Source of the DNA: Treponema sp.
Lineage (GTDB): Bacteria; Spirochaetota; Spirochaetia; Treponematales; Breznakiellaceae
Direction: 5' to 3'
Length of the DNA stretch: 64,000 nt
Assembly (NCBI GenBank): GCA_009777735.1
Contig: WRLF01000007.1
Coordinates: 1 to 64,000 of the forward strand
The notes under the pieces are model-generated. The model did no database searches. It saw nothing but the letters and a program-made list of their open reading frames with translations, and was not told where the DNA came from. Below, piece by piece: positions 3,147 through 3,569 of the stretch. Position 1 is the first letter of the stretch. Each line of letters starts with the position of its first letter. A program made the position numbers and the translations under genes.

Positions 3147-3171
3147 TCTGACTGAAACGTCATAAGCAGAG

Positions 3172-3200
3172 TTGAATTTACCGGGGCTAGGCGGTATAAT
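3172..3200 (+). promoter_or_regulatory. probable promoter of tRNA-Arg
   Basis: TTGAAT (3172-3177), a 17-bp spacer and a perfect TATAAT (3195-3200) point toward the tRNA 114 bp downstream. The spacer overlaps a 20-bp direct repeat that recurs downstream. Confidence 0.55.
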
Positions 3201-3271
3201 ATTACTGCTCCCGCAGCGAAAGCCCTCGCGCCTTTAGTGGCATACTGTTGCATTTACTGGGGCTAGGCGGT
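3176..3271. repeat. 20-bp direct repeat pair upstream of tRNA-Arg
   Basis: ATTTACCGGGGCTAGGCGGT (3176-3195) recurs with one mismatch at 3252-3271, a 76-bp period. The first copy forms the spacer of a good promoter. The second is preceded by TTGCAT but followed by TGCTGA instead of a -10 box, so it looks like a decayed duplicate of the promoter. Confidence 0.55.
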
Positions 3272-3313
3272 GCTGACGTTTTTCATCCACACTCCTAACG
3301 GAGTGCATATAAT

Positions 3314-3387
3314 GCGCCTGTAGCTCATCTGGATAGAGTAATGGACTTCGAATCCATAGGTAGCAGGTTCGAATCCTGCCGGGCGCA
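3314..3387 (+). tRNA. tRNA-Arg, anticodon TCG
   Basis: The acceptor stem GCGCCTG pairs with CGGGCGC, with discriminator A at 3387. The anticodon stem ATGGA/TCCAT encloses the loop CTTCGAA, giving anticodon TCG (reads CGA). The T-arm GCAGGTTCGAATCCTGC is canonical. CCA is not encoded. The last 18 bases plus AAA are duplicated at 3549-3569. Confidence 0.93.
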
Positions 3388-3569
3388 AAACTAATTACTA
3401 AAACTGAAACAGAAGCAGGATTCGAAACTTTTTTGCGGCCTGTTTAGTGGCGAGACTCGCAGCTACTAAACAGGTAAATCGCCAAGGATGGCGATTTAGC
3501 AAAAAAGACGGCCTGGAGTGAGGCAACAGGAGGTTGCCGAACGAAAGGCGAATCCTGCCGGGCGCAAAA
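3370..3569 (+). other. structured insert bounded by a duplicated tRNA-Arg 3' end
   Basis: The 21 bp from 3370 to 3390 (tRNA 3' end plus AAA) is repeated exactly at 3549-3569, as expected for an attL/attR pair. The material between folds tightly on paper. A closing stem pairs GCAGGATTCG (3415-3424) with CGAATCCTGC (3549-3558). A 9-bp stem CTTTTTTGC/GCAAAAAAG (3428-3436/3499-3507) encloses two abutting hairpins: CCTGTTTAGT/ACTAAACAGG (3439-3448/3465-3474) and TAAATCGCCA/TGGCGATTTA (3475-3484/3489-3498). A third hairpin, GGCAAC/GTTGCC, lies at 3522-3538. No protein is encoded. It could be a mobile non-coding element, a structured RNA cotranscribed with the tRNA, or a satellite remnant. Confidence 0.65.

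Follow-up and report, generated by a model that had tools for sequence, protein, structure and literature searches.

A protein-free structured element behind tRNA and tmRNA genes of spirochaetes, with arms that match the local gene

In the window, by which we mean the whole 64,000-nucleotide stretch of Treponema sp. DNA analysed here, a tRNA-Arg gene is followed by a small structured element whose relatives are found behind tRNA and tmRNA genes of many spirochaetes. Comparison of the copies shows that the core, the only part common to the loci, is flanked by a left arm that is the inverted T-arm of the local gene (tRNA positions 54-65) and by a right arm that is the direct copy of the local 3' end (positions 56-73). 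We see the chances as evenly balanced that the full reading holds, namely that this protein-free element has moved within genomes, would work as an RNA in the manner of the RtT RNA of Escherichia coli, and would spread by copying into the T-loop.

Structure of the Element at the tRNA-Arg Locus

The locus is composed of the following parts.

3313..3388, plus strand: tRNA-Arg(tcg), the host gene, found by ARAGORN and Rfam RF00005 (68.8 bits); T-loop C56 is 3370.
3370..3390, plus strand: copy 1 of the tRNA 3' end, from C56 to the discriminator plus AA; exact 21-bp direct repeat.
3391..3414, plus strand: spacer, short at this locus and unconserved among copies; usually 44-81 nt, and elsewhere often with a terminator.
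3415..3426, plus strand: inverted arm GCAGGATTCGAA, 5' strand of closing stem P1; reverse complement of tRNA 54-65.
3428..3436, plus strand: stem P2, 5' strand, pairing with 3499-3507; from fold and covariation, with double-sided change in 7 of 9 pairs.
3438..3475, plus strand: hairpin P3 (3438-3451/3462-3475), from the fold; differs between copies.
3476..3497, plus strand: hairpin P4 (3476-3484/3489-3497) with a GGA loop; double-sided change in 5 of 8 pairs, 100% paired, with a compensated swap in orthologues.
3499..3507, plus strand: stem P2, 3' strand; from fold and covariation.
3511..3549, plus strand: hairpin P5 (3511-3514/3546-3549, 3518-3519/3541-3542, 3522-3527/3533-3538), with conserved GGA/GGA and tandem GA internal loops.
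3549..3569, plus strand: copy 2 of the tRNA 3' end, including the 3' strand of P1 (3550-3558); exact repeat, which other copies retain up to position 73.

The exact 21-bp repeat (CGAATCCTGCCGGGCGCAAAA; 3370-3390 and 3549-3569), whose first base is T-loop C56, had been recognized in a sequence-only reading of this DNA and is confirmed here, as are the lack of an encoded protein (the element contains no ORF that reaches 50 aa) and the multibranched fold, for which a closing stem, a 9-bp stem, two abutting hairpins and a third hairpin had been predicted. All of these stems were found: P3 and P4 abut and are enclosed by P2, P5 is the third hairpin, and the closing stem (3415-3424/3549-3558) comprises 10 bp, 9 of which are used in the MFE structure. 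The same reading was right that the closing stem uses the duplicated T-arm, copy 2 being paired with GCAGGATTCGAA; as the left arm of this stem is an inverted copy of the 3' half of the T-arm (54-65), the stretch is present three times, in direct, inverted and direct orientation. The element folds as RNA at -75.1 kcal/mol, compared with -44.5 kcal/mol for dinucleotide shuffles (z -7.8), with z values of -9.05 as DNA and -6.8 as minus-strand RNA, and none of 200 dinucleotide shuffles folds as well, either as RNA or as DNA. The window copy is a single unit and not a tandem array. In searches of the window with Rfam 15, the gathering score was reached only by tRNAs, and a relaxed threshold yielded, besides tRNA, chance matches only; in 12 further loci it was reached only by tmRNA.

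Two repeats were also observed upstream of the tRNA gene. A 23-nt sequence (GTGCTGACnTTTnTCATCCACAC) followed by a small hairpin occurs at 3270-3292 of the window and at 620-642 of locus L107, that is, upstream of tRNA-Arg and of the tmRNA gene, with no third site in the genome; it may be a promoter-region element common to stable RNA genes. A 25-nt direct repeat (GTTGAATTTACCGGGGCTAGGCGGT; 92%) is positioned immediately upstream of tRNA-Arg at 3171-3195 and 3247-3271, 76 bp apart.

Copies in the Same Genome and Their Locally Matched Arms

BLAST against the genome itself identified the element behind tRNA-His (95% identical) and tRNA-Asn (87%), and reading all tRNA loci together with a covariance model revealed further copies at Gly(ccc), Ala(cgc), Ala(ggc, 3'-truncated), Ser(gga), Gln(ctg), with a decayed acceptor part, and tmRNA. 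In the full-length copies, both the inverted arm and the right end fit the local gene, the inverted arms being GCAGGATTCGAA at Arg, GGGGATTTGAA at His, GCGGATTTGAA at Asn and GGGAGTCGAA at Gly. The cores at Arg and His share 96% identity, whereas their arms are entirely different and the sequence outside is unrelated. At C13:72712-76635, two elements that are 98% identical (L044 and L108) are located behind tRNA-Ala(cgc) and behind a tRNA-Ala 3' fragment ~3.7 kb further on, an arrangement that looks as if an island had integrated whose attachment end carried an element copy.

The match between arms and host gene was quantified in 68 first units behind 28 tRNA/anticodon kinds. Inverted arms had 0.65 mismatches per 10 positions with their own tRNA and 3.29 with others, which none of 10,000 permutations came near, and a perfect 18-nt copy of positions 56-73 was present in 54 of the 68 units. 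Resolved by position, the match of the inverted arm is complete at 55-62 and weakens beyond 64, with some arms reaching or overrunning the tRNA end (19-24 nt); the direct copy matches at 85-100% up to 73, the mature 3' end, and at ~0.6 further on. At L027, the arms track species-specific T-arm variants. Both arms thus differ at each tRNA because they match the host gene. The duplicated end had first been taken as the mark of site-specific integration, a meaning that finds no support, since no recombinase accompanies the element and both arms differ at every tRNA.

Covariation and Distribution of the Family

An alignment of 15 sequences, with a five-helix structure of 44 pairs, was the source of covariance model R1. 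The search for copies and covariation that the sequence-only reading had called for revealed copies behind many tRNAs and compensated, both-sided changes in 31 of the 44 pairs; double-sided-change cells numbered 119, compared with 37 in shuffles, and the signal was lost when partners were slid. The outcome that would have counted against that reading, neither copies nor covariation, is thus clearly contradicted. The common plan is a tRNA, a spacer (mostly 44-81 nt), the inverted arm, P2 around P3 and P4, P5, and the direct copy from C56, with a core of ~125 nt in an element of less than 200 bp. Terminators were observed in the spacer at 44 of 67 loci and after the direct copy at 37 of 67, tandem units with a truncated last unit are present in relatives, and the spirochaete copies do not encode CCA. 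Loops fit CA(N)GGANG in 108 of 110 elements, compared with 16 in shuffles. As P5 loops often read CACGA, a CsrA sponge is kept as a side idea only. A hammerhead-like P5 was rejected because the spacing is unsuitable.

The covariance model matched 79 of 393 Spirochaetota genomes, in 38 of 167 genera, and within the window's genus it matched 37 of 40 genomes, with at most 18 copies each. Scanning named genomes for the pattern gave 114 stretches; the matches listed belong to Spirochaetota (Treponema of termite gut and rumen, Brucepastera parasyntrophica and others), with two exceptions, a contig assigned to Tannerella in a termite-gut sample, which may be misbinned, and a bacterial MAG. Hosts comprise almost all sorts of tRNA gene (28 tRNA/anticodon kinds) and tmRNA (three copies after tmRNA genes), and several copies are located after tRNA 3' fragments that islands left. 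Plasmid and phage sequences gave no element match, and the sole element in viral contigs lies at a prophage edge beside a host copy. Our literature search found no publication describing this spirochaete element.

Movement within Genomes and Conservation after Insertion

On a tree of the cores, which has few columns and many unresolved forks, genome labels are clustered (22 changes, compared with a shuffled mean of 32.4 and minimum of 29), whereas tRNA kinds are almost random (61 changes, compared with 65 in shuffles, range 58-70). The cores therefore group by genome and not by tRNA kind, which suggests that the element moved between tRNA genes inside genomes, with new arms each time. At tRNA-Trp/secE, the genome of the window has an empty site with a 35-bp gap, and in three relatives the site is filled by a spacer (~64 bp), arm, core and copy 2, with 34-39 bp beyond. 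As the flank after copy 2 still measures 34-39 bp and the spacer ~64 bp, duplication of the target flank is rejected as a general source of the spacer, and repeated spacers at other loci fit truncated tandem units. An empty-site comparison across the genus for the window's own locus found no synteny. Taken together, comparisons between loci and between genomes point to a mobile element.

Two pairs of orthologues bear on what follows insertion. Between L165 and L188, the arms and the whole of copy 2 are identical, in contrast to a diverged spacer and flank, and a compensated replacement of one stem is seen; between L106 and L122, the spacer has diverged and the core and downstream flank are nearly identical. 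The arms are thus retained after insertion. P1 does not include positions 66-73 of copy 2, which makes it likely that this copy serves as a tRNA 3' end. In both pairs the spacers change far faster than the core, yet retain the terminator hairpin; in L106/L122 the spacer also changes far faster than the downstream flank.

Comparison with Known Systems

The closest likeness is to RtT RNA (RF00391), that is, the tyrT 178-bp repeats or rttR of E. coli, also known in Pasteurellaceae. The two share the position after a tRNA and a spacer (often with a terminator), a structured core, a direct copy of the tRNA 3' end to the mature end, a closing inverted arm, and tandem units with a truncated last one and copy numbers that differ between strains. 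In E. coli, units with arm, core and 3'-end copy were found at tyrT, tyrV, proK and lysV (with the Rfam model) and at argV and argQ (by eye), and their inverted arm fits the local tRNA well at Tyr and Arg, over a shorter length at Pro, and poorly at Lys. The annotation of rttR RNA runs as far as the CCA of copy 2. At proK, the unit is followed by a repeated terminator and a truncated extra unit, and among sampled E. coli strains one 168-bp unit is missing in 17 of 40 places, a few having two RtT annotations. In a Pasteurellaceae species, RtT homologues beside Asn and Lys tRNA genes were detected by Northern blot (PMC4986893). However, the cores differ, and the spirochaete element occurs behind 28 tRNA kinds and tmRNA without encoded CCA. 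RF00391 left the window unmatched at a threshold as loose as E 10 and had no match above cut-off in 149 Spirochaetota genomes, with a positive E. coli control, and R1 gave no match to the E. coli tyrT units. As neither model finds the members of the other, we regard the element as a new RtT-like family and not as RtT itself. The earlier proposal of a mobile RNA-like element or a new RNA is supported in part, as regards structure, occurrence behind many tRNAs and compensatory changes; the layout was already known from RtT.

Islands and phages that integrate at tRNA genes through tyrosine recombinases (T-loop or 3'-end sublocation) likewise duplicate the tRNA 3' end, starting in the T-loop. They differ in that our element is below 200 bp, has no recombinase in the unit, and possesses tRNA-specific arms, an extra inverted copy and a conserved fold; a fixed attachment core common to the targets is absent, the arms varying at every tRNA. 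Islands and a prophage adjoin some copies (L017, L037, L108, L121, L318), with the element outside the attachment end. At L016 (1250-2200), the last tRNA-Met 3'-end copy of a two-unit array directly precedes an open frame resembling an integrase start, and copy 2 may be an alternative landing site for islands. That the element is a remnant of a site-specifically integrated island or a decayed tRNA array is hardly credible: duplicated tRNA 3' ends are usual for integration and islands do stand beside those copies, but a covarying conserved core behind 28 tRNA kinds and tmRNA, arms that differ per site, the missing recombinase and the position outside attachment ends all argue against it.

REP/BIME sequences with RAYT (Y1) are likewise short, dispersed, gene-free palindromic units, and some RtT-like sequences have been reported inside BIMEs (PMC2965389); the spirochaete element differs in following tRNA/tmRNA genes or 3' fragments, in its host-derived arms, and in that a Y1 transposase is not universal. 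Of 20 genomes with the element, 13 had Y1_Tnp, compared with 3 of 16 genomes lacking the element (raw counts, uncorrected for kinship), and Y1_Tnp was absent from the complete element-bearing genomes G287, G217 and G424. Reverse transcriptase (RVT_1) was absent from complete genomes G296 and G424, which carry 6-8 or more copies. Each enzyme is thus rejected as a universal partner.

Possible Modes of Action and Spread

In the RtT-like reading, transcripts reading through the tRNA would carry the element, whose tRNA-sense strand would fold as RNA. P1 and the copied tRNA 3' end would together mimic the 3' end of a tRNA and so offer a second substrate to tRNA 3' processing, which would release the unit as an RNA of ~160-200 nt with its terminus at copy 2; that copy would stop the inverted arm from invading the tRNA's own T-arm. 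Spread would occur by copying into the T-loop (GGTTCRAATCC), via template switching or some enzyme, with both arms taken from the target; the T-arm, which is close to palindromic and which every tRNA shares with tmRNA, could provide a universal template-switch site in both orientations. Well-formed stem pairs show G-U over A-C at 36:12 when read on the tRNA-sense strand, which favours this strand, although the sequences are related and the significance is rough. Against the RtT-like reading, we count the absence of a match to RF00391 and the few G-U pairs, which are unusual for RNA (~1.5%, compared with ~7% in tRNA stems of the same genomes) and make DNA hairpins or palindrome correction possible. 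With a terminator between tRNA and element at 44 of 67 loci, co-transcription may be weak. The surveys of reverse transcriptase and Y1 transposase yielded no enzyme for the spread, and the few columns and many unresolved forks of the core tree also weigh against this reading. As for mobility, we lean somewhat against, while taking as a real possibility, a self-retargeting element whose gene-free core enters any T-loop and whose arms are written from the target via the near-palindromic T-arm.

A mobile element acting at the DNA level, without RNA function, appears unlikely. Some enzyme would recognize its single-stranded or cruciform hairpins, and entry at a T-loop break, where both strands of the gene's right half would be joined to the element, would yield the inverted and the direct copy. 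Such a route would agree with the spread between tRNA kinds, with the almost purely Watson-Crick stems and their scarce G-U pairs, with the DNA fold (z -9.05), and with those inverted arms (19-24 nt) that extend to or beyond the tRNA end like a fold-back product; it sits poorly with arms and entire copy 2 conserved after insertion while spacer and flank diverge, with the G-U:A-C skew towards the tRNA-sense strand, and with the surveys of reverse transcriptase and Y1 transposase, which found no partner enzyme.

We consider it quite improbable that the element is an immobile regulatory or processing RNA linked to tRNAs, whose arms co-evolve with the tRNA and whose similar cores per genome reflect gene conversion. 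Although orthologous copies at the same tRNA and the arms tracking T-arm variants at L027 would be expected of such an RNA, the 96% identity of Arg and His cores between wholly different arms and flanks, the nearly random tRNA kinds on the core tree, and orthologous sites without the element are at odds with it.

RtT repeats have so far been an oddity of E. coli and its relatives. Finding the same plan around another core, in a second family that belongs to a different phylum and follows 28 tRNA kinds as well as tmRNA, makes this a general phenomenon, so that the route of spread and the purpose of the copied tRNA 3' end can now be tested. Self-retargeting, if true, would be a previously undescribed mode of mobility, with parallel forms in spirochaetes and enterobacteria (RtT). 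An element with host-written ends would either move in such a novel way or be a selected device for tRNA processing.
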